Shown: piece by piece, positions 9,311 through 61,069 of the stretch
Numbering within the stretch: the first letter of the stretch is position 1
Layout: the number at the start of each line of letters is the position of its first letter
Assembly (NCBI RefSeq): GCF_042242105.1
Contig: NC_092032.1
Coordinates: 10,060,415 to 10,124,414, forward strand
Length of the DNA stretch: 64,000 bases
Source: Pempheris klunzingeri
Lineage: Eukaryota; Chordata; Actinopteri; Acropomatiformes; Pempheridae
Reading direction: 5' to 3'
Notes under the pieces: generated by a model
The model's input: the letters and a program-made list of their open reading frames with translations, nothing else
Databases searched by the model: none
Told to the model about the DNA's origin: nothing
Program-made: the position numbers and the translations under genes

Positions 9311-11821
9311 AGAAAGGAAATAAGGGTATTTCCCAGAATGTCAAACAATTATTTTAATTACATGGATGGAATCACCAGTTTTAATCAAAATATTTTAACT
9401 TTCCCCAAGTGCCACTATATCAATGATTTTAATAAGGACAACTTTCTGCCAAAAAAAAAATAGTCCTTATGAAAAATTATTTACAGTGAGGGCTGTGAAT
9501 TATACAGAGTAACAGAGACAATCTGGAGAGAAGTCTTTAAATGATTTTCAGTCATGATACCATCCATACACATCCATAGTATTGGAGTAGAGAGACAGAT
9601 ATCTCAAATTATGGGTAAATAGAGCCAAAACTATCTGCATGAATAGATACCATCAGGGTTAAGTAAGAAAATGCTTCTCTGTAATTTGGGTGAACCAATC
9701 CTTCAACATATGATGCAGTGAGAGAGACGACGTTTCAATTACTTAATCCAAAACATCCATTACTTTATGAGTCATGTCTCCTAATCCAGATGTTGTTTCC
9801 TAAATCACATTTCCTGTTTTCTCTCATCTGCCATGCTGCTGCCAAACACATTTGTTGCCTAGCCTCACACACAGACACAAACACATTTCTATAAGTATTT
9901 ATGTGTCACAAATGACCTGTTTTCTCGTCTCTGGCCACGGCAAACAGCATGCAGCGTCAACAGCTTCTAGCCGAAGAGCATCATCCTCAGACACATTGAC
10001 AGTAGCTCAAAGCAGAGCCGCTGATGAATGACACTTTCCATAGGAAGGCAGGGAAGTGACTACTGAGAGTGGCTCTGCATAGTAATTCTATACAGTTAAC
10101 TCCTTGCAATGCCTTGAAAAGTTACTTAGAACTTGAAAGTGTAGAGTGAATAACAGGGATCTGGAGTATGAAATAACCCTCCCTGGCTATTATTGCTGCC
10201 TCCTTGGATGGCCACATTGTGGTCTCTGAGAGGTTAATGTAAACTTCTAACCTTGGTAACATGATTTCGACATGCCCTACAAGAAGTCGTCTGATGTTTT
10301 GTTAACCTAAAGCACAGATTGTGATTTTCAGTAGGAGTGGGGTGAACTTAATTACTATTCTGTCCAATAAAATGGCCGACATGTTTGTCCACTCATAGAC
10401 TTGAGTCCATTTCAGATTGGCTGCCAAGTAAAGCACCATTTGCTGGTTTGAGGTTATTTTACACTCTTCCCTTCCTTTGTCTCCTGACCAAACATCCTGT
10501 CCTTCAATTCACATCATTAGCCCGCAGCTATCCAGCCAGTGGTCTTGCTTAAGCTCCAGGGAGAAGTTTGCAACATCGGTCTAAAACCAGAGGTGGGGGG
10601 ATCGGGAGCATGAAGATGAATAACCATCTTTCCACCTCAAACTGTGACTCAGTGGGAAATTAGACATTACAGATGCTTTCACAATCTTTTTCAAGCTTGT
10701 TGAGTAAGAAGAAACATGTTTCACTGATATGGTCGAGGACAGGAAAGTGGTATATAGGCTTGTCTTGGACCGGAAATGAAACCTCTACAATTTTCACAGC
10801 AGTGCATGTTTTCAATCGTAGCGGGAGACAATTCCTCTGTGACCCAGAGCCTGAGGCTTCTCGCCTCTCCCACTCCCACTCACTCTTTCCATCCTGTAAT
10901 ACACCTAGAGACAGGGTGCCTATTCATGTACAACTTGCCCCATCAGGAGATGCATTCTTTATGGTGTTCTGTGTTTTAAAGGCCATTTATTTAAACTCCT
11001 ACAGAGGTGCATTAATCCCCCCCCCTCCCCAACATGCTTTCCAGATAATGCAAAACATACTGTGCAATTTAAAGAGAGAATGAATTCAAAACACTAAGTT
11101 TCTTTCTTTGTTTTTAAGCTTTCTCTGTCTTGGTTGATCATGAGTAATTCCCCTAAACCATTATAGAGTCATCATGATTTTTATCCACATCTGACAATTG
11201 TGATTTCATCTCTATATCCTGTGTTCAGTCAACAGAAGTCTTTGGGCCAGAAGATGGATTGACAGCGCTGATGTCTGCTGTATATTCCACTGAGAAGCCT
11301 ACTGAGGAGTGATTACTGTAATTCTAAAAGGCTTATTGAAGTGTTTGGATCAGTGCAGTGCTGTAATAACAGCTGCTGTACGTACGCATATTGAAAGCCC
11401 AGGGAGAGAGATTCATCCTCACGGAGCCAGGAGCCAAATTGACTGCATAATCCAGCATTTCTTCAAGACATTACCAGAACCAAACCACCAATTTTTCATT
11501 TGTTATGCGCAGAGGTTTGACAACTCAAGTTTCTTCTCTCTCCCTCTCTGAGCTCACTCTTATTTATACACACACACACACACACTTTGGTGGGAGCTAC
11601 AATGCAGGCATAAGTGGAAAATGTCCTTCATTCTTGGGTAGAGTTAGAGGGGTTGGGGGAGATTTTAAAGGGGAGGCCCCTCAAGATGTCTGACATGTTT
11701 CTGCAGGACCGCAGGCCACTGGCTGGCGCAGAGCACAGGCTTGTGGTGGGCTGTTTGTCTGCGTGAAGCTGGCATGGCCTCCCGTTCCCCTGCATCTGTT
11801 CCCCATTAGCGGAGCCGAGAG
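9311..11821. other. Gene-free stretch upstream of the six-exon gene
   Basis: No convincing exon was found. A pyrimidine run and a short CA microsatellite (about 11,567-11,586) precede the promoter of the next gene. The last few hundred bases (about 11,690-11,820) are richer in GC and probably hold the proximal promoter. Confidence 0.5.
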
Positions 11822-11827
11822 TATAAA
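11822..11827 (+). promoter_or_regulatory. TATA box of the six-exon secreted-peptide gene
   Basis: TATAAA lies 48 bases before the start codon at 11,875. With a usual spacing of about 30 bases to the transcription start, the 5' untranslated leader would be only about 20-25 bases, which fits a compact hormone-like gene. Confidence 0.7.
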
Positions 11828-11874
11828 GCAGGGAGCTGACAGGAGCTGGGAACACTCGAGTTCCTGCCTGGATC

Positions 11875-14800
11875 ATGGGGTTTACTATCTGGCTGTGCGT
11901 GCTCTGCCTGCAGGCGAGCCTGCTGTCACACGCCCTCGACTGCTCAGGGACGACACAGGGAGAGCTGTGTGTCAGCAGCCAGACTGCAGACGGACAGGTA
12001 AGAGGCGCATTTCTAATGGGTGGGATAGGGAAGGACAGTGGTAACCAAGGTGTTCATTAGGTATCAGTCGTCATCTGCTGTTGTGACACTACAGGGGCTA
12101 CAGGGGTGAATGCAGCCTGTTTAAATGCCGTTTGCCGGACCAAGCAGCATGATGACTACCCTTCTCTCAAATCAAAAAGAAGAAAAATCTGAATTATCAG
12201 CATTTTCGCCAGCAAAGACGCCTCAGAAGACTTTATGCGATGCATGCCGACAGTGGAAAGTCAGTTTGATTTTACTTCTAATAGGATAATATGTTTAAAA
12301 TTTTGAAAATTACAGTGAATGTGAATTGTGAATCATCAAAATAGACATTTCTGTCTCTTTTGTACAAGCCAAATCTCAGTGAACTCAAAGCTTGACAGTT
12401 TGTCTATCACTCCTTTCCTCTTTTAACAAAGATCCACGGGATTGGCATAGATTTAATAAAGGAAATCATTCAGGATTCATCCTTATCAGTACAGTCTCTG
12501 TTGAGACGTAGTGTGGTCAGTGTTTATACAGTAACTCAGCTCAGAGGAAACCTGTAACTCTGCTGGAATGTGAGTCCACTCAGACTCTTTGAAAAGAGGC
12601 TGCTGTGACGATGATAGTGGCCAAGTGTGTTTCAGGAGGGTAGGAGACGTGTACAGTCTAACCCTGACCTGTGGAGACATATAATTTTTTTTTCTGACAG
12701 AGACAAAGTCTCATTGTAATGGTTTATACAGCCACCACACCAAAAATACACCCTCCGTGGAACAAAATCTTTCAGCTCCTTTTTTGGATTTTCATGTGGC
12801 TGGCGGCTGTTATACTTTAAACTTGCGGTTGGCATTTTTCTGTGGACAGTCCTCATGTTCTGTCCAAAGTAATCACCCTCATCTGGACAACGGATTCGAC
12901 AGCTGCAAGAGCATTTTCACCCACACATGAAAGCGTTTTCATTGGGAATTCTGCTCCATCTGAGGGAGTTTGTGCCACATATGTGCTTTTCTGTAGCAGT
13001 CATTTGTATTGTAATTATAGCATGCGCAATTTGAAGCTTCAAATGCGGTGGAAACTAACTAATACCCGATGCAGCATCTTGTCAGAGGCTCCATTTGGTT
13101 TTGTTTACTTATGTTTTGCCTTTTCCCACCAGGGTCACTTGTGTTTATAATGAGGTAGAATGCTTTAAATTTGTCATTTATGGAACTCGTCAACACATAA
13201 CGTGCACGACAGCAGAAAGCCAGATGGATTGTGGCAGGTTATCCCCCCCTAAAATCCTGTGTGCGCACACACACACACACGCACAAAACATACAGCTCAA
13301 TTTTATGAGGCTGTCAAGATCAGAAGATCACAGGTCTTGCTTCCACCCAGTAATGCTGCCATGTTTGGTGACTTGAGTGCTGAGGAATTATTTGTTTTGT
13401 CAAGTGCAGTTATGACATAAATTGTAACTTTTTGTCAGACAAGACAATGCGTCTTGGGGAAGATTAAAAAAAAAAGAAAAAAAGCAGCGTCTGTTTTGAC
13501 TCTTGGTCCTCTCTTCTTCTTCCTCACAGTATGACGATCAGAAGCAGCAGAGGGCGCTGCCTTTACCTGAAGGACTGGTATGTGACACCACCCACTCCTG
13601 TCCCACTCAAGGGCATTGGTCCAGTCTGAAACCTTTAGCTCTTCCATGTGAGGGCAGGTTCAAAACTCTCTGGGTCGTGGTCATTGGAACACCACAACAG
13701 GCATAAGATGAGAGGACAGACGTCATGTTTGTAGGAAGAGACAAACAACAGAGGGAATTAAATGGAGTGGACAGGGGAGGTTGGTCATGATGGGTGGATG
13801 AGTTCTTTCTTTCTTATATAACTCAAAACACAGTTATGTTAATCCTGCAAACTGAATAACACTGATAGAAATGACTATATGATGTATTCACAACGAAGCT
13901 ACCATGGAAACATTGAGAGAAACAGACAAACACATGTTGATGAAGTCCCTTCCACACAGTGGAGATGTGTGCATCCCTCCAATAACATATTTATATTGCA
14001 ATCACCCCTTCAGCCCTTAACTGTACAGTTGTTGTGCCACATTGAATTCTCAAATATTCCACAAAGCTCGTTCCAGAGTGAAAACTACAACAATCAACGC
14101 AATGTAGGTCAACAGCAATCACCGCAAGCACTTCAAATGGCATCGCAAATGATTGCGAGGCAAATGTTTTGTAGCTAATGTAGTCGTCTTTGTTTTCAAC
14201 AGAGTGGAAAATGAGAAAGAGAAGGAAGTTATTATCCAATATTGGAAGCAGTCTTTTTTTCCGCACTTATATAACTTGGGGGGAAAATGAATTGATGGAG
14301 TCAAGGCCCTGCAGAACTCCTGTAAATGTACCACAAAGTCCTAATTGGCAAACTGAAACCTGTTGTTTCTCAAAGTGACAGTCCATTTATTAAGGAAACG
14401 AGTGGATCAATGGCAGTGCTTGGTTTATGTGCGGATCAATGAGAAATGCAGGAAATGGAGGGCCAAGTGACAATAATAATTTTCCTGTTTCTTCCCCTTA
14501 ATGTTTGAGTTTAACAGCCAGTAAAAATTAGACTGAATGTGACAAGGACAGTACAGAGCAGGAGACAACAGGGTGAGAAAAGGGCAAGGGCAAAACAACG
14601 TGCTCCACTCAGCATCCACTGCACACAGACAGGTCAGACGTGCAGGAACTGCTGTTTCCCCCTGAGGTTGTGGATGTGGTTGTGACTGTGTCACCCTTGT
14701 AGGTTTTGTTCAGACGTAAGAGACAGTTGGAGCGGAGGGGTCCCACCCACCTGAGCCACTCCAGCCTGCCTGGGGCCGTCTCTGTCAAAGGCTTCCCCAA

Positions 14801-15702
14801 CACCCTCATCCAGGTAAACCACTCTTGTTAGTCACGCAAGAGTCAGAGAGCAAAAAGCCAAACGCGGGGGAGGTGGGGACTGGTTTACAGCGGTGGCTGC
14901 TGCAGCCAAAGGTCCACTGACGTTTTAGTCATAATGTGTCATCTGTGTGCGCCGAAATGCAAAAGTGACTCAGAAACCACATCATTTGGTCACTGAACTG
15001 ATTTAAGAAAAACCATATAAGAGGATCTATTTCAGAATGTGCGTGCAGTATGTATCAGTGTATAGACTAATCCTCTGCTCTCTTAGGCTGACAGGTCCAG
15101 GAGACACTTGGTGCAAGTTCTGAATAAGAAAAAGAACAAGCGTAAATCACGCGTTGGATCCTTCTCCCTCCTTACCAACGACATGAAATCCACCCCCCTA
15201 CAGGTGAGTCTCCATGGCAACCCCTGAGTAGAGGAACAGCTGGGGCAAAGAGGCCGGATGTGGAGGCAGAGTTATAAGGCCACCTTACTTGGTTTTATTG
15301 GGTCATCCGAGTCTATTCACCAGTATGATCTGTTCAGTGAAATCGCTTTTTCACATCATACAAACAATATCCTTTCAGTTTTGCAGCGGAAAATGTCCCT
15401 CATAATTTCTTTCAATGTGCTGGAAGAAATGAATAATTATTCTATGTGGGACTTCACTTCCAGGTGACTAGAGCGAGGAGACAGGTGAAGGCCGACCCAC
15501 CCAAGAGGGGGAGTTCAGGTCGTTCTGGTGCATTCTCTGTCCTGGTGAGTCATTATCCAGTGTTTACTCTCCTAAACACAAATGTACTGCCTTTGATGAA
15601 TATTTATATGATGTGTTGTGTGGTCTGCAGGGAGATCCACAGAATGACGGACAGAACGACAGACCCAAAAGAAGCATAGAGAAGATGAGCGCGACAAAAT
15701 AA
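11875..15702 (+). CDS. Six-exon gene for an unidentified secreted basic precursor, 183 aa
   Basis: Coding exons are 11,875-11,997, 13,530-13,577, 14,703-14,813, 15,087-15,203, 15,464-15,544 and 15,631-15,702. All have GT-AG borders, every intron is phase 0, and the joined frame is open to TAA. Residues 1-20 form a signal peptide (hydrophobic core WLCVLCLQASLL, likely cut after SHA). The only mature cysteines are C23 and C32. Basic clusters suited to convertase cleavage are RRKR at 61-64, SRR at 98-100, KKKNKRK at 108-114, RARR at 136-139 and PKR at 146-148 and 172-174. Two related octapeptides occur, RVGSFSLL (116-123) and RSGAFSVL (153-160). This looks like a peptide-hormone or growth-factor precursor, but I do not recognise the family. 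The lack of a cysteine ring in the second half argues against adrenomedullin, CGRP and natriuretic peptides. The next gene lies 7 kb away. Confidence 0.75.
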
Positions 15703-16091
15703 GATGTTCTCTCTCATGTTGGTTAAGCCTAATGAGGGGTGTGAGCAGTACAATGTGCCCAAAAACATGTAAACAGGCTGAAGATTGGAGTTTAAATCGG
15801 ACATTTGGAAAAAGAACTGTGTTTAGTTGGTTTGAGGAATTCTCATGTGTGTGTCCACCATTGCTGTTTTAACTGTATCTTACTTTTATCAGCCAGTCTG
15901 CACTTAAGGATACTTTTTATATACTATTTTAAGTTTCTAATATATTCCTGCATGTTATAAAACATCACAAAAGATCCCATATTAATATTCTAGTTTGCCA
16001 TTGTGTTGTAACCTATTTAATCACAGATTCCTTATGAAGATTGGGGGTATATTTTTGCAGAAATATTTCTTGTGTTGTTGTATCAGATTTC

Positions 16092-16097
16092 AATAAA
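16092..16097 (+). terminator. Poly(A) signal of the six-exon gene
   Basis: AATAAA occurs 390 bases after the stop codon, in an AT-rich 3' untranslated region, and is followed by GT-rich sequence (about 16,105-16,125) that could serve as the downstream element. Confidence 0.7.
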
Positions 16098-16129
16098 AGT
16101 TTAGTGGAGACATATGGTGTGAAAGTCTT

Positions 16130-22894: not shown

Positions 22895-23656
22895 TCAGCA
22901 GATATTTTGCCTCTTTGACTGCACCCTGGTCTGACTCCTATTTGCAGATGTAGGGGGTCTTGGTTGGATCACTGGGGAGGTTTTCCCTCTGACACCCGGC
23001 TCTCCACAGAGGGGGAGGTGGTGCTGGGCTGCCTGTCCTTGGGCCTGGTCTCTCTCCAAAGACAGCAGCATGGTCTGCTTTAAAGCCGCCTGGTATTTTT
23101 CATTCATCCGCTTCACTGCAGGTTCGTAGCTGTCGCATCTCACTTTAAGCTTCCTTATTTCCTCGACGAGGCTGTTTTTCTCCTGGACAACGCGCTTGTG
23201 CTGCAGCCGGTGGAGGTCTCTGGCTTTCTGGACAGTCCCCAGGGTGTCGGCTGCGGCGGAGGCTGCCCGTCGGTACTCCTCCGCCTCCCGCTGCGCGTTT
23301 CTCAGCTCGCTGGCCAGACGCTGGTTCTCAGCGTACACGTCCGGCACCACAGCGACCCGCTCGGTATCCACCAAGCCTTTGTGCGCCATCTCGGTCCACT
23401 CCGTCTGAAAACAGTCGAGTGTGTCTGTCATGCCCATTTGGAGGAGAAAGGTGCGTAAAAAGTCATCCACGGGCGTTGCTTTGTGTCTGGGAGCAGCAGC
23501 ACTGGACTCTGGCCGCTCTTTAATAGCTTTCAGCGTGGCCTCCAAATCTTCCTCCCCCTCTGCCAAATGACTGCAGTCATCCTCGAGAGAAACTTCTTCA
23601 TACTGGAAGCCATCGTCACTCTGGTCCTCTTCTTGATATTTGCCTGCTGCGCTCAT
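22895..23656 (-). CDS. spag16-like: SPAG16/PF20-like N-terminal protein, intronless, lacks WD repeats, 253 aa
   Basis: SPAG16 (PF20) is a ciliary and flagellar axoneme protein of the central apparatus with an N-terminal coiled coil and C-terminal WD40 repeats. The frame from ATG at 23,656 shows an acidic start (FQYEEVSLEDD, GEEDLEA) and the family's conserved blocks DDFLRTFLLQMGMTDTLDCF and EWTEMAHKG. Then come VPDVYAENQRL, LHRLQHKRVVQEKNSL, CDSYEPAVK and LLSLERD. This corresponds to about the first third of the usual protein of about 630 aa. After residue ~210 similarity stops and a proline- and arginine-rich tail leads to TGA. The stretch is uninterrupted, whereas mammalian SPAG16 is split over many exons, so a processed copy or lineage-specific intron loss is likely. 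It lies head-to-head with ndufb4 and has an X-box just upstream. It could be a functional short isoform gene or a remnant. Confidence 0.75.
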   Translation of the reverse strand: MSAAGKYQEEDQSDDGFQYEEVSLEDDCSHLAEGEEDLEATLKAIKERPESSAAAPRHKATPVDDFLRTFLLQMGMTDTLDCFQTEWTEMAHKGLVDTERVAVVPDVYAENQRLASELRNAQREAEEYRRAASAAADTLGTVQKARDLHRLQHKRVVQEKNSLVEEIRKLKVRCDSYEPAVKRMNEKYQAALKQTMLLSLERDQAQGQAAQHHLPLCGEPGVRGKTSPVIQPRPPTSANRSQTRVQSKRQNIC

Positions 23657-23777
23657 CGTCTCATTTCACTCGTCCAGCGAGAGAGAACGTTTGGTGTTGC
23701 CATGGCGACGTGAAGGTCATTCAACGCGAGATTTCACCAGTTCACGTCCGCCCAGTCCCGTTCGTCATCAAACAATC
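23657..23777. promoter_or_regulatory. Bidirectional promoter between the SPAG16-like gene and ndufb4
   Basis: Only 121 bases separate the two start codons, which face away from each other. No TATA box is present. CpG dinucleotides are frequent (for example in the AACGCGAG and CACGTCCGCC stretches), as is usual for shared housekeeping promoters. Confidence 0.7.
23696..23709 (-). promoter_or_regulatory. RFX X-box
   Basis: GTTGCCATGGCGAC matches the palindromic RFX-factor X-box GTTGCCATGGCAAC at 13 of 14 positions. It lies 39 bases upstream of the SPAG16-like ATG. RFX factors drive ciliary genes through X-boxes close to the start, which agrees with the axonemal role of SPAG16. The match is seen; binding is inferred. 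Confidence 0.65.
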
Positions 23778-26371
23778 ATGGCGGAGTACCGAGAGGCGCC
23801 CTTGGCCACCCGGCCAAAAACACTGGATCCAAACGAGTATTTCAACCTCTCGCCGGAGTATCGACGTGCCGAACAAGAAAGGGCAACACTACGAGCGAGT
23901 CTGAAGAAGCAGTATATGACACAGCTCAACAATCCGCACAGAAAAGAGCTCATTGTAAGTGCCTGCCTGCCTGCTAGCTAACAATGTCACCCTTGAAAAT
24001 GGCTGAGGCTACTTGCTAACAGAAACATGTCAGGGCACATAAACGACACGAAGCCAGTTTTACTAAAGTATAGAGTCACATATTTATGTGCATTTTGTGT
24101 TCAAATGGAGGGCTGGATGGCACTAGTGTTATCTGTGCAGTTTAACTGCTGTGTGTAGTGTAGTGATTCAAAACCCGGTCAGACTTCAGAAATGCCTTTT
24201 TCCTACTCTGACGCCTAAATTCGTACGTTGTTAGATTTTACGATTTTAATATTTCCGTGTAAGTAAATTGAAGTTGAAGTGCTAGACGTCGACTAAATGC
24301 ATCTTTAATGATAATATTACCTTAAACAAAGTTGAAGCTACACAGCTGTAAGCTGACCCTGGTCCAGACTGTTTAATCTCGAGCTGCCTCAATAAGTCAA
24401 ACTGCAATTCATCAGATTTTGACAGTCTGCAGTAGCACATTTGTATTTGACAGTCATATGGTCGAAATTTGTCCCAACAGCCTACAGCTGTCTTACACTT
24501 TACCTGAAACTGATCAATTTGTCACACTCATGTACGTAAGTTACCTAATATTGTCATCTTCTCCCTCTGTATTGTAGTTATTCTGTAAACACTTGGCCTT
24601 TTCCACATCAGACAGGTCGACTCCTCAAAGTAGTTAACTTTTATTCAAGTGCTCCAATAAGCAATGACAGCATGACGGACAGACTGGCGACCAGTACCAA
24701 AGCAGCAAAATGGAATTCAGCCATGATTCATTTCTTTTCATTTAATTTAATTTAATTTCTTTCTACTGTGACATGTCAAAATGTTTTCTGTGAAAAAGGC
24801 TGTTCTGGAAGAGGGATGCCTCCACAGAGGCAAATCACGAGGTTCCTTCCTTTTTTTTCCAGTGTAAAGGTTTTCTAATGAAAATTAAGAGCTTAAGGAG
24901 AGGGTTTCACATGTCGCACAGATTAGAAATCTTTCTGTGATAAATGTGTTATTTTGAGCTGTATGACGGAAACTAACTTGATGCCAACAGCTTTGTTTAA
25001 TCATGATAACATACTTAGTCTCTTCTCTTTGCTCTTGTAATAAGTCATAATTAACTGTCTGAGTCTACTGAAAAGATTCTGTTTATAATGATCGATCATT
25101 GAAATTTAAAAGCGTTCGTTTGTCTTTACAGGAAGACCCTGCTCTGACACGCTGGGTGCATGCTCGCGGCAACCCTTACTCATTCTTCAAGCCCACATTC
25201 AAGACATCTCTGCTGGGTGCGATGTTTGGAGTTGTTCCACTCTTCGCCCTCTACTTCATCTTCAAGACTGACAGGGTATGAGCCAAGATGCACCGACCTC
25301 TCTTTACTTGATTGTCACATGTGTTTAATGAATGGCACAGTCACAAGGTTTGAGAACTACTAGTTACTAAAAATCTACAGATGCAGTGGCACATATTAAT
25401 GTTTATACCCAGAGCCCAAAATGCATTGAGCTTGGGCACGAAGACTTTGGGATTTTGGGAACCATTTATTCAGACTTTGGACCCACGGGTCTTCTCTTGG
25501 TTACATAAAGAGCAAGGCAGACTAGACCCAAAATAGGATAAATAAACATGGAAAAAACAGGATATGCCTGCATATGTTTCATATTATTCTTTCAATGTGT
25601 GTCATTTTGTTGTAGGAGTCTGAGATTTATTTCCCATCCCCTCTGCTGTACTCTTTTCTTTGCATCTATCTGCTATTATATTGACAATACTCAGTGCCAG
25701 TGGTGGTCAAAACATTGACTTTACTTGATATAATGATGTGATCAACACAGCAGTGACACGTGAGCACAAGGATTTTTACAGCACTAATATGAGGCTTATT
25801 TGCTAATCTAATACACTGATAATGACAATTATCAAGACTAGTTTAGCCTAAAAGAATGCTAAAATGTGACACGTGGTCCCGAACCGCATCATAGATTTCT
25901 GAAAAGCTATTTAGTTGAGGATTGGTACTCATTATACCCTTGTAGGTGCACAGTTGATCTGGTTTTCTTTTTTTTTGTCACAGTTCCATTCACATCAGAA
26001 ATGAATGCCTCACTTGAAAAGCTGCCTGCTTCCATTTTCCTCCCCATTGTCATGGAGATGTACCCTCTAAATTCTTGCCAATAGATATTCCAGTGAGAAT
26101 TTGGTGCAATTGTCACACTGCTGTGCTATCATGTTTGTCTCCCTCTCTCCACTGGGGGAAAAAAAAACCTGCTTGAAAATCATTAAGCGTTCGTCCATAT
26201 AACATGCAGTTGAGAGAATGTCTGGAAGGTGAAGAGGGTGAGAGTGATATGACTTTGTTGCCATGGAAACTGCATTAACCCGTCATCTGTTTGTCGTCTG
26301 TTTAACAGGATAGGAAGGAGGACCAGATTAAGGCTGGAACCGCCGAGCGTAAATACTGTTTGTCATCATGA
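23778..26371 (+). CDS. ndufb4: NADH dehydrogenase 1 beta subcomplex subunit 4 (complex I B15), 127 aa
   Basis: NDUFB4 is an accessory subunit of mitochondrial complex I, anchored in the inner membrane in the distal part of the membrane arm. Coding exons are 23,778-23,954, 25,132-25,275 and 26,309-26,371, with GT-AG borders and phase 0 introns. The 127-aa product is close to the human 129. Family features are the N-terminal LDPNEYFNLSPEYRRAEQER, the QLNNPHRK segment, EDPALTRWVHARGNPYSFFK at 60-79, one membrane span (LLGAMFGVVPLFALYFIF, 86-103) and a short KAGTAERKY tail. There is no cleavable presequence, as usual for this subunit. It shares its promoter with the SPAG16-like gene and converges on hgd, the same neighbour as in human 3q13. 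Confidence 0.95.
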
Positions 26372-27067: not shown

Positions 27068-33922
<6,855 letters not shown>

Positions 33923-45090: not shown

Positions 45091-48000
45091 ATGAGCGGTC
45101 AGTTTGAGGAAGACATACACGACCGGGGCGAGAGGAAGAGCAGTAAATCCCCGACGCTGCTCTCCTCTTACTGCATAGACAGCATTCTGGGCCGCCGGAG
45201 CCCCTGTAAGGTCAGACTGATGGGGGCGCAAAGTTTGACGGGTCTGTCCGGCAGAGGGGAGCTCGACAAGACGGCTGACAGTAAGTTTTCCCTCAGCTGA
45301 GATGAAAAAAGGGGGAGTCCATGTTGGTTATTTGGGAGCAGTGTGTGGGAGAAACATGTAGGAAATCAGCTGGCTTCGTGCTGCGTTTTATGCAGCCAAC
45401 AGGTGAACAACGGTGTTTTAGTAGTGATGGTTTTAATAGTTGGGTGATAAATGTTCCTGGACTAAAGAGCTGCTGTAGAGTCCGGCAGGATCGTTCACAG
45501 GCTTACAAAAGTCTTTTAAGGTTCGCCGTTTTCTTATTCGTTGGTTCTTTTCCTTCCCAGGGCCAAAAGACCCCCTTTCCCTCAGCGCTGACATGCACCT
45601 GCCGCCCAAGCTGCGCCGGCTGTACGGCCCCGGGGGGAAGTACCTCCACGACCACGCGGACACGCTGGACAGGGAGCGGCTCCTCCTGGAGCAGGCCGGC
45701 GACGGCCTCAAAATCAGCCAGGCGCCGCAGGTGAGCATCAGCCGCAGCAAGTCCTACCGGGAGAACGCGTCGCTGAGCCGGGGAGAGGGCGACCAGAGCC
45801 CCGGGGAGGGCTCGGAGGACGGCAGCCTGGGACTGGTGGAGCTCGGCCCGTTGAAGTTCGAGGAGGACGCGGGGAAGGAGGAGAGCTGCGGGGACGCGGC
45901 CGCTCTGTCCCCGAAGGACGAGGAGAGGGAGAGCTTGAACGCCGGGGATGGGGACGTGAGGGACGGGGAGGACAGCGTGTGTCTGTCGGCGGGCAGTGAC
46001 TCGGAGGAGGGGATGCTGAAACGGAAGCAGAGAAGATACAGGACTACGTTCACCAGTTACCAGCTGGAGGAGCTGGAGAGGGCTTTCCAGAAGACACACT
46101 ACCCCGACGTCTTCACCAGGTAAGAAACATTTAAACTGCGCAAAATATGATGGTTTGAAGCGTGGAAAACTTTGCTGTGAAATTATAAAATTTGTCCTCC
46201 CTAAAATTATTATTATCATAATTATTATATCAGCTTTTAATTATCTGCGTGTACAATTTTAAAACGACAAAAAAAACAGGCCTTTTATTTTAATTTACAT
46301 TGCCTTCAAAACGTCTGTAATTAGTATACACTAGTCTACAATAATTGTATTATAACAAATAGCCCATATTTGTTCATATATGTATATAGTCTATATTATT
46401 ATTATTATTATTATTACTACTAATATTTTTATTACAGATCACTGAGCTTTAAATAAAATCCAAGAAACGCACTAAGACACAAAAAAATGCTCAGCAATGA
46501 TTCCGTGAATAAAGGTGATAATTAATTGCATTTATTTTCAAATGAACACTTCCTGGCCCCAGAAACATTTTTCCAGAAACAGTCCCAGTAATTCCACACA
46601 TGTCTAACTGTCTAACACTGTGCGGATCACACCTCATAAAACGTCCCAACACCAGACCCGTGCTTTGCCTAAGTGGACACAATAGGCCTGTAAGTGCCAA
46701 CACTGAGGACGTTTTGTTACCTGCATCCATCCGCTCCTGCTGATACAGAAGAAGTGTTATTCTCAGGAGGAAGAATTAACCGCTGCAGCTCACGTTACCT
46801 GCTGGACATGATACTGAATACAGAGAGAGAGAAAAGAACAACTGAGGGCCAAACCTTAAGCCCAAGGGCAGGTGTGCTCACACGCTCAGAGAACTTAAGA
46901 GCTTCCATGTTTTGTTTTGTTTCTCTGAGGGTTTCATGCTGGAAGAAATTTTTTTTTAGAAAATGACATTAGGATTTTTACGCAGCAGCGCCTGAAAAAG
47001 AAAATAATCTCACCTATAAACAACATTTCCTGCTCGATTAATAACTGATTGATACATCCGCCTTTTGTGCTGGAAAACAGGAGCTTTTCTGACACCACAA
47101 GACACAAGAACCTACATTTTCGATTTCCCTCACCATTGGGATTATTCATATTTTCCAATCGATTTACTTAAAGGCGACTTGTAGGTCTAATTTACACTGC
47201 AAGCCCATCTCGCAGCTGAAGGGAGCGTCAATTGCTTTGTGGCAGGCTAGTTTAGATGTCATTATTTCACCCATTATGTTGTTACAGTGACAGGCCTGTG
47301 CTAAGGAAAATCTAACAATCACTAGGCCTATTTCTACCCATCCGTGACAGGGAAAATAGAATATGGCCATGGCGTCTTTCTGCAGCCCATGCCAGGGAGG
47401 AGGGAAAAAAATCAAGCCTATTTTCGTCGTCTATTGTTGACAGTGAACAACAGGAGGGGACAAAACAGCAATTCTGCATCGCTTCCAAGCTGTGGCCTGT
47501 AACCTTGAATCTTTTCTTTCTTCCTCTTTCTTCCTCTGTCTCTCTCTCTCTCTCTCTTTTAAACATGCTTTCCAGAGAAGAGCTCGCAATGCGCCTGGAT
47601 CTTACCGAGGCCCGTGTTCAAGTAAGTGGCTCTCTGTTGATCTGTATCTAAAAAGAGAAGCCTTTGGCTCGTAAATCAAATAGGGAGGAGAGAGGGGGGA
47701 AAGAAAAAAAGCAGCACCCTCAAAATGTCCCCGGTGCTCAGCGCTGGATAATAACCGGTGATATGCGTCACTGATTGAGGATCAGCGATTACGGGCCAAT
47801 TTGAGGCAGTAATTTATTACAGTAAAATGTGTTAAATGGCCTCAGTCGCTGCGCGGGGAAGGTCTTTCCTGTTATTGAATGTTATTACTCACGAACGTGG
47901 ACGTTTTAGTGGCAATTAAAGCGACGCTGGCGATTCATAAAAAGCTCACTTAGTGCAGGAGCAAACAGTGTCTGTATTCCTGGGCTGAGATGGTGTTTGA

Positions 48001-48515
48001 ATTCCCATCAGAGGGGACAGAGAGGGGGCCAGGCCGAGATATCCGTGTGTGCATGTGTGTGTGTGTGTGTGTGTGTGAGTAAAAAAGATGTGAGGGAGGG
48101 AGGGAGAGAGGGGAGGGGAGGGGGGAGAAAGTGGGGAGGGATAATGCTATTTGATTTCCCATTATGTGATTGCAATAGACCTGCATTGATCCGATGCTTT
48201 GCACTTGGGAGCGAATGAGAGACCATTAAAGGTGTTTGCTCCCCTGCTCCCCTCCCGGTACCCCCCCTCCCCCCTGTCTCCCCCCTCCCTCCCTCGCTCT
48301 GAAAGCGTGGTTTGCATGTCGAAAGCTCGGGTTCATAACCAGAGAGACAGTTCAAACACGGTGGAAACTCCGGGAGGTTATGGCCGACGGTAAAACAACA
48401 GATGTCTCTTTAGGGGCCGTAGGTGAACAAATCACTTAACGGGCGCCATCAGGAGGTGATAAAAACTCATAAATTCCCGAGGGGCTGTGTAATGCTAAAC
48501 AGCCCTCTGGGAATA

Positions 48516-48556
<41 letters not shown>

Positions 48557-50604
48557 CCCTGTCGCTCAAGCTCGCCCGTTCAATCACTTCCCTCATGTTG
48601 ACATTTTGCTCATTGTGAGAGCCCCGTGCTTCTGCAGTGCAAACTGTGCAACAGTGGATGCGTGGGAAAGTTAAATACTCTCTGGGATGGAAGTCACTTT
48701 GTTCTACATCTCTTAAGAATTTAATTTAAAGCGCATTAATTGTTATTGGAGCCAGTTCAGCGGTAATTTTCTGGATCCTTTGTTAACACCGCTCTTAATT
48801 ATCTCCCCCCACCACCACCACCACCCCGGTGCCCGTCTAAAGGGACTGGGGGGGTTTAATTAGACAGAAAGTAGATTTAAGGGGGCCGTGAGCGGCAGGG
48901 TTTACCTTGCATGTAATTACCGTTGACTTTCCGCCTATTGGCCACCACCTGAACTAGACAACTATTAGAGCACACTGACACAACATTCAATAGAGTCTAG
49001 TCATGTTAATCACAAGGACACATGGCTGTGATGTCAGCAGGACAGGGAGTTCTCATTATTTACAGCATGAGAGACCTGCACGTCCAAACAGTTACATGGA
49101 CAAGGGCGACTTGTCTCCTGGTGGACATCATGTCATCTAGAGAGGAGCCTTTATGCAGCAGAAGTGGCCTCTTTGTATATTGATTCAGCTGTTTTTTATG
49201 CAGCCTCCTTAGAACGTGTGTCTATCTTCCTTAAACTATGATTTGTTTGGTGCTGCCTTTGTCATCTTCCTCGCATTAATATCTACACATATTAATCTGT
49301 GTCACCTCTCCTCAGGTGTGGTTTCAGAACCGCAGGGCCAAGTGGAGGAAGCGTGAGAAGGCCGGGGTGCAGGCCCACCCGTCAGGCCTGCCGTTCCCGG
49401 GCCCCCTGGCAGCGGGCCACCCCCTCAGCCACTACCTGGAGGGAGGGCCCTTCCCTCACCACCACCACCCTGCCCTGGAGTCCGCCTGGACAGCCGCTGC
49501 AGCCGCAGCCGCTGCCTTCCCGGGCCTGGCCCCACCGCCCCACAACGGCTCCGCTCCACCCCTGGCCACCCCGCTCGGCCTGGGCACTTTCCTGGGCACG
49601 GCTGCCATGTTTCGCCACCCTGCCTTCATTGGACCCACTTTTGGCAGGTAAGCTGCACCCATGCACAGACCTCCAGCAGACCTGCTTTCTGCTCTTTACA
49701 CTTCTCCACGCCGTGACCACCAATCTCTGTGCCCATAGGACTCCATGTTCATCCCTGTATTATCAGTAAATCACTACAATTTTGCAGACAGAAAAAGGCA
49801 CAGCAGCTAAAACATAATGCAACTCTAATGACAGATGTCGGTCACACTGTCCTACTGTTTATCTCAGTGTCTGATTAGAAATGTGTTACACTGTTAACCA
49901 TTCACAGTGGTGTGTAATCTCTATGTCAGATGCCCTAATAGACGAACCAAACGTGTGATCCTGTGAGAAAAGCTGTGAGGAGGGGTGACACGGCACACAT
50001 TCCATATGCCACAAGAACATCATTAACCTACTGCTCTCCATGTTAAGGTTTATTTTAGGGAAGTCAGCGCGCAAAACATGATCTAAATCTATTTAGGAGG
50101 ATTAAAAACTGAGGAAACTAAGAGGAAAAAATAAACACTGGCACAGTGAAAATCTTAATTAGCAGGCAGGGGTTGTTCCATAGACAGGATAATAGGAGTT
50201 AGAATTGCTCTCATGTAAAGAGCAAAGAGCCAGTTTTAGCTTGAAAAATGAGACGTCTGTGCTATTTTGCAATGAATAATTGACGGTTGAATATTGTGTG
50301 CAGAATCCATAAATGTTGCTGATTAAGGTTGTCTCCTTTCAGACTTTTCTCCAGTATGGGTCCCCTGACCAGTGCTTCCACCGCCGCAGCTCTCCTCCGC
50401 CAGCCCGCCCCTCCTGTAGAGAACCCCTCCCACGCGGGCCCCGTCCTCCCCGACCCTACCTCTTCTTCCTCCACCTCCTCTTCCTCAGCAGACCGCAGGG
50501 CCTCCAGTATCGCCGCGCTGCGCCTCAAGGCCAAGGAACACTCGGCTCAGCTCACCCAGCTTAACATCCTGCCCACCGGAGCCGCAGGGAAGGAGGTGTG
50601 CTGA
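45091..50604 (+). CDS. arx: Aristaless-related homeobox transcription factor ARX, 462 aa
   Basis: ARX is a paired-type homeodomain regulator of forebrain interneurons and pancreatic alpha cells, acting in the nucleus mainly as a repressor. Coding exons are 45,091-45,280, 45,561-46,119, 47,576-47,621, 49,316-49,647 and 50,343-50,604, with GT-AG borders and a continuous frame. Landmarks are the N-terminal octapeptide/eh1-type motif (YCIDSILGR, 27-35), an acidic region (about 150-210), the homeodomain at 220-279 and the C-terminal OAR domain (about 427-445, [18 protein letters not shown]). The homeodomain carries Q269 and N270 at homeodomain positions 50 and 51. The five-exon layout and the split of the homeodomain over exons 2-4 match mammalian ARX. 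It is shorter than human (562 aa) because the two long N-terminal alanine tracts are absent. One run of eight alanines remains (325-332). By its pola1 linkage this is probably the arxa-type copy. Confidence 0.97.
47740..47955. promoter_or_regulatory. Candidate conserved element in arx intron 3
   Basis: This block lies between the exon carrying [15 protein letters not shown] and the exon starting VWFQNRR. It is free of simple repeats and contains GATAATAACCGGTGAT, AGTAATTTATTACAG and GGCAATTAAAGCG, several of them palindromic TAAT/ATTA-type homeodomain sites. Function is inferred only. Confidence 0.3.
48053..48077. repeat. GT microsatellite in arx intron 3
   Basis: A run of about 12 GT units is followed by a G/A-rich stretch to about 48,140. 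Confidence 0.9.
48519..48552. repeat. GT microsatellite in arx intron 3
   Basis: A run of about 17 GT units lies in the same intron, 440 bases after the first GT run. Confidence 0.9.
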
Positions 50605-60550: not shown

Positions 60551-60709
60551 CCTCTGTATAATCTATTAGAGATCTCCTGCAGCGGATGAAATTACCTCCA
60601 TGTTTTACTCAGTCGCAGCAATCAGGCACAAAAATGCAATGTACATGTAGATAAGACAGGCGCACGCTTGCAAACGTGCACGCACACAAACACGCTGCGG
60701 CACTGCGGT

Positions 60710-60849
<140 letters not shown>

Positions 60850-61069
60850 GCTGATCCAATTACATTCAGCCTTGACTCAGAGCTCTTTTATGTAAAGCTA
60901 TTTTACTTAAATGTGCTTTATTGTGTGTGTTCAGTACAAATGTAAACATGTACATTCAGACTCTGGTGAATGGCTGAACCATAAATACTCAGGTATCATC
61001 CATAACTGTTACCACAGAGAGATAAACAACGCGTTAGTCTTCTTTAATACTTTCAGCCCGTCTGTGGCT

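Follow-up and report, generated by a model that had tools for sequence, protein, structure and literature searches.

Precursors that convertases process into several peptides share a signal peptide, an acidic propeptide and peptides split by basic sites, and they often devote one exon to each peptide. Osteocrin/musclin is secreted, and its active part is basic, lacks cysteine and has basic cut sites; spexin is also a small secreted precursor. The genes for secretory calcium-binding phosphoproteins (SCPP) have phase-0 introns throughout, a separate untranslated first exon and products that are acidic or rich in P and Q, and many fish antimicrobial genes occur as tandem families. In the parts of the open-licence literature that were covered, we found no description of a precursor with the features reported here, nor is there one in the examined parts of a cichlid prohormone survey (PMC4992253). 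In a zebrafish enteroendocrine peptidome study, a gene that had been left without annotation proved to encode secretin (PMC12714231).

The 64-kb window analysed here, which covers C21:10060415-10124414 of the Pempheris klunzingeri genome and to which all positions without a contig name refer, contains a probable gene that follows the layout of one exon per peptide. Its likeness to the multi-peptide precursors is one of design, not of sequence: unlike them, it has no amidation signal and no known peptide motif, and its cut sites are of the furin type. The gene comprises the following features, to which the predicted peptides P1 to P3 and a possible additional exon are assigned.

11822-11827, plus strand: TATA box (TATAAA)
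11875-11997, plus strand: exon 1, with the start codon, the signal peptide and the first part of the acidic propeptide
13530-13577, plus strand: exon 2 (16 aa), acidic propeptide
14029-14103, plus strand: possible optional phase-0 exon (25 aa) in intron 2; weak, may be chance
14703-14813, plus strand: exon 3 (37 aa), RRKR and then predicted peptide P1, QLERRGPTHLSHSSLPGAVSVKGFPNTLIQ...
15087-15203, plus strand: exon 4 (39 aa), RSRR and then predicted peptide P2, HLVQVLNKKKNKRKSRVGSFSLL...
15464-15544, plus strand: exon 5 (27 aa), RARR and then predicted peptide P3, QVKADPPKRGSSGRSGAFSVL...
15631-15702, plus strand: exon 6 (23 aa plus stop codon), with the last part of P3, RPKR and the C-terminal SIEKMSATK
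16092-16097, plus strand: poly(A) signal AATAAA

The six phase-0 coding exons proposed by the first-pass annotation agree with a base-by-base check of their coordinates, and all five introns run from gt to ag in phase 0. The splice sites had been described as good, and none of the 10 falls below the 95th percentile of the GT or AG sites in 264 kb. The ATG at 11875 stands in a strong start context (A at -3, G at +4) and is preceded by an in-frame stop at 11824; the stop codon that closes the 183-aa product ends at 15702. The TATA box and the poly(A) signal were likewise found where they had been placed, at 11822 and 16092. The distance of 53 bases from the TATA box to the ATG would suggest that no untranslated exon precedes exon 1. 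Compared with SCPP genes, the introns have the same phase, whereas coding here appears to start in the TATA-proximal exon and the product is basic. The complete gene model of the first-pass annotation is supported by these checks, and the locus is very probably a real protein-coding gene.

The product begins with a segment that a crude hydrophobicity rule classes as signal-peptide-like, in line with the signal peptide claimed earlier, and we infer a cut after residue 20. Behind this predicted cut, an acidic propeptide of 40 residues (net charge -4) extends to RRKR and is followed in order by P1, RSRR, P2, RARR, P3, RPKR and a nine-residue tail. The number of R-x-[K/R]-R sites (n = 4) compares with 0.34 expected, and none of 20,000 shuffles was as good. 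Exons 3, 4, and 5 have their site at residue 4, 3, and 3, respectively, and exon 6 has its site at residue 11. Together with the signal-peptide-like start, this excess of sites supports the description of a secreted basic precursor with convertase sites. Two of the individual sites listed at first, RRKR and RARR, are present as stated, but the one given as PKR reads RPKR, and RSRR (residues 97-100) had been missed. The second half of the protein indeed lacks cysteine, the only cysteines outside the signal peptide being C23 and C32, both in exon 1. No N-glycosylation site is found in the 183-aa product.

We read the locus as a real single-copy gene encoding a secreted precursor that is processed by furin-type cleavage, is partly exon-duplicated and gives rise to basic peptides acting outside the cell, and we assign this reading a probability of roughly 0.55. 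Judging from the motif, furin or a related convertase would cut the precursor at its four R-x-[K/R]-R sites during passage through the secretory pathway, which would free the acidic propeptide, three peptides of about 33-37 residues and a short tail. P1 and P3 begin with Gln, and this N-terminal residue could become pyroglutamate. The peptides, P2 above all, may act outside the cell through their charge and the shared GSFSLL/GAFSVL motif, with a receptor, or an anionic matrix or cell surface, as candidate partners. The hormone, defence and matrix alternatives discussed below are more specific versions of this reading, with which they overlap.

The first of these is a true peptide hormone or neuropeptide precursor that would be stored in granules and cut by PC1/3 or PC2, with one of P1-P3 acting on a G-protein-coupled receptor. 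The signal-peptide-like start with several basic sites, the small size, the exon-per-peptide layout and the TATA promoter would all suit such a precursor, but the cut sites agree with furin, the peptides are basic and of considerable length, and no Pfam hormone family is matched. Furthermore, the G-[KR]-[KR] amidation signal is absent from the 183-aa product, and this lack, combined with furin-type instead of simple dibasic sites, would argue mildly against a classical neuropeptide. Three RE1-like sites are present in the window versus 0.53 expected (at most two mismatches to the pattern), the nearest to the gene only at 31258, which also speaks against the hormone interpretation. Taken together, we regard this form as possible, if unlikely; the first-pass suggestion of a new or poorly described fish peptide system is likewise one option out of several.

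The family searches used the whole protein, the six exons (exon 2 with 30 preceding intron bases) and a profile of exons 3-5 as queries. In Pfam, the whole protein matched only Sec31 (E 0.04, 14.3 bits vs. a cut-off of 25), and among the single exons only exon 1 had a match, to a model for a carboxypeptidase A inhibitor (E 0.59). The Pfam peptide-hormone families (CGRP, natriuretic peptide, PTH, glucagon, galanin, NMU, etc.) gave no profile match in a type of search that can miss short peptides. VIP, tachykinin, calcitonin, hepcidin, piscidin, actinodin, and SCPP, which were also considered as families, had no Pfam match. In the PDB, ribosomal proteins were the best match in both the protein and the profile searches (E 0.36), and the next ten matches of the exon 3-5 profile were HTRA2 chains (E 1.1). 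None of the Pfam and PDB matches is above chance level, and the earlier statement that the product matches no known hormone family is supported for these two databases, in which nothing exceeded the cut-off. NCBIfam, a prokaryote model library of little weight for a fish protein, gave no match, and the viral and prokaryote contigs yielded no relatives, which says nothing about fish.

The gene might instead belong to a known hormone family from which it has diverged strongly, as profile signal gets lost in short peptides. By analogy, the fish secretin of the peptidome study was identified only through peptidomics, distant homology and synteny (PMC12714231). We consider this quite unlikely, as no defining motif was recognised and the spexin-like and musclin matches of the genome lie on other contigs, the other families having been compared via Pfam only. 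Spexin shows a loose likeness by eye at LERR...SRR; the precursor has no profile match to the spexin family (PF15171), and the NWTPQ-type mature peptide is absent. Two spexin-like matches over the Pfam cut-off are found in the same genome (C22:17920055-17920114 and C5:9327842-9327895), consistent with two spexin genes. The precursor also lacks a profile match to osteocrin/musclin (PF11037), and the musclin match of the genome (69 bits) is located on contig C4. These matches on C22, C5, and C4 make it unlikely that the precursor gene is a displaced spexin or musclin copy.

Exons 3, 4, and 5 each open with R-x-[K/R]-R and carry a G-[S/A]-[F/V]-S-[V/L] stretch, and R, R, G, and S are the invariant columns of their alignment, in which a start-codon rule rendered the leading residue of exon 5 as M. 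Local alignment of the six pairs among exons 3-6 resulted in uncorrected P values of 0.006 for exons 4/5 (3000 shuffles), 0.02 for 3/6, and 0.03 for 3/5 (3000 shuffles), while the pairs 5/6 (0.28), 4/6 (0.52), and 3/4 (0.69) show no similarity. As these values are uncorrected and the pairs 3/4, 4/6, and 5/6 are null, the case for a repeated module comes down to exons 4 and 5, which probably constitute a duplicated module, with exon 3 as a weaker candidate for another copy. At the DNA level, three two-copy repeat families of 19-26 bases occur within the gene, none of which joins exons 4 and 5. In our preferred reading of a partly exon-duplicated precursor, exons 4 and 5, and perhaps exon 3, would have arisen by duplication of a symmetrical phase-0 exon. 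There is a slim chance that the gene belongs to a fish-restricted secreted signalling system, in which the exon-duplicated precursor would release two or three related peptides that share a G[SA]FS[VL]L core, act on their own receptor and stand outside the named hormone families.

Phase-0 repeated exons and a basic, cysteine-poor product would also be compatible with a structural protein that is trimmed by furin and belongs to the extracellular matrix or to a particular tissue (cartilage, skin, egg coat). This seems doubtful, since the protein is small and matches no Pfam matrix family, and four separate sites would cut it to pieces. We are similarly sceptical of a host-defence precursor that frees several cationic antimicrobial peptides, to which we would give only a slight chance. 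P2 is the most basic peptide with a net charge of +8, and P1 (+2) and P3 (+1) are weakly positive, but the helical moments are not above those of shuffles (913, 1117, and 1904 of 2000 shuffles at least as high for P1, P2, and P3, respectively), leaving the idea of amphipathic helices unsupported; the hydrophobic fraction of the three peptides is 0.18-0.32. In addition, no further copy of the gene was found in its genome, in contrast to the many fish antimicrobial genes that occur as tandem families.

The copy number was assessed across the Pempheris klunzingeri genome (646 Mb, 439 contigs), in which the precursor matches only its own exons at E 0.001. The gene is thus most likely single-copy, and since no further copy was found, a transposon origin is unlikely. 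A search at E 10, with the best candidates scored, gave one other match, on contig C13 (E 1.5, 34% identity). The open frame in which it lies has 130 residues and includes a basic stretch but, by eye, no module led by R-x-[K/R]-R, and the match was dropped as a paralogue.

The chain of exons was compared with chance by searching the region 11700-16100 for the best six-exon, phase-0 chain led by a signal peptide under the crude hydrophobicity rule. The best result is exactly the six claimed exons (score 133.6), while the reverse strand of the region has no such chain in the same search. None of 100 dinucleotide shuffles holds any signal-peptide-led six-exon chain, and only two of the 118 tiles of 264 kb do, one being part of the precursor gene itself (119.0) and the other scoring 78.8. 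With the signal-peptide rule dropped, a six-exon chain is found in 3 of 150 shuffles (best 82.9; 0/150 reach 133.6), and one of the 118 tiles, which falls within a long multi-exon prediction in the left flank, scores higher (155.0). Since exon number and phase were taken from the claimed model, the test is in part post hoc. For chains of three, four and five exons, the region exceeds all 150 shuffles, and 19, 9, and 3 of the 118 real tiles, respectively, score above it, the tiles being counted regardless of whether they are genes or non-genes. A seven-exon chain that includes the 25-aa exon at 14029-14103 scores 144.3 versus 133.6 for six exons.

Codon usage, scored with the human table, is not decisive for the gene model. 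The score is positive in five of the six exons (total 35.9 bits), and among six frames it favours the claimed one only in exons 2 and 4; in the others, another frame is slightly better (other vs. claimed: exon 1, 9.7 vs. 9.4; exon 3, 12.6 vs. 11.3; exon 5, 5.3 vs. 4.7; exon 6, -0.3 vs. -1.4). A general gene parse gives the claimed model scores of 29.6, 14.6, and -0.4 at three exon penalties. The first two penalties recover exons 2, 4, and 5 with their exact boundaries and exon 3 with a start at 14714, whereas the strictest retains no more than exon 4 and the late-starting exon 3; at all three other first and last exons are preferred. An earlier gene-finder run called 75 and 83 genes with settings that were far too permissive. 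That the locus is not a functional protein gene, as a chance exon chain or a decayed gene, would agree with the modest codon score, the claimed frame not being favoured in four of six exons, and with the low parse scores, but is very improbable, as none of the shuffles equals the locus when its splice sites, its signal-peptide-like start, the open chain and the cut sites are taken together.

The neighbourhood of the gene includes the following features.

22895-23656, minus strand: long, intronless frame, presumably a SPAG16-like N-terminal part
23775-23981: first exon of NDUFB4 (Pfam)
near 25.2 kb: later exon of NDUFB4 (by eye)
45091-50600 (ends approximate), plus strand: homeobox gene that we take to be ARX-like, with the homeodomain identified by Pfam

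The SPAG16-like frame has no Pfam family at E 0.01, and a relative with 44% identity is present on contig C19. No WD-repeat part was recognised by eye in the listed frames of at least 55 aa between this frame and the precursor gene. In the ARX-like gene, the first half of the homeodomain is above the Pfam cut-off and the remainder is just below it (21.7 bits). Its C-terminal part has a strong match only to itself in the genome, and the best other match is weak (E 1.3e-4), so that a second teleost ARX copy is not seen. A frame at 1708-1881 on the minus strand reads like a fragment of what we take to be a LINE reverse transcriptase, and a long CA/TG microsatellite at 60650-60860 gives TH/CV repeats when translated in several frames. 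In the 64-kb window, neither the Rfam scan nor the tRNA scan gave a match.

The gene of our preferred reading would encode a convertase-processed secreted precursor, which is a known kind of protein, here without a family match in Pfam and PDB. Should the gene prove to lack both conservation and expression as peptides, it would be an ordinary lineage gene. The zebrafish peptidome illustrates that an unnamed gene can be the missing orthologue of a classical hormone (PMC12714231). The clear cut sites in the precursor would make the prediction and synthesis of its peptides easy, and if the gene is expressed and conserved, it would add an unassigned secreted precursor to the catalogue of fish peptides.
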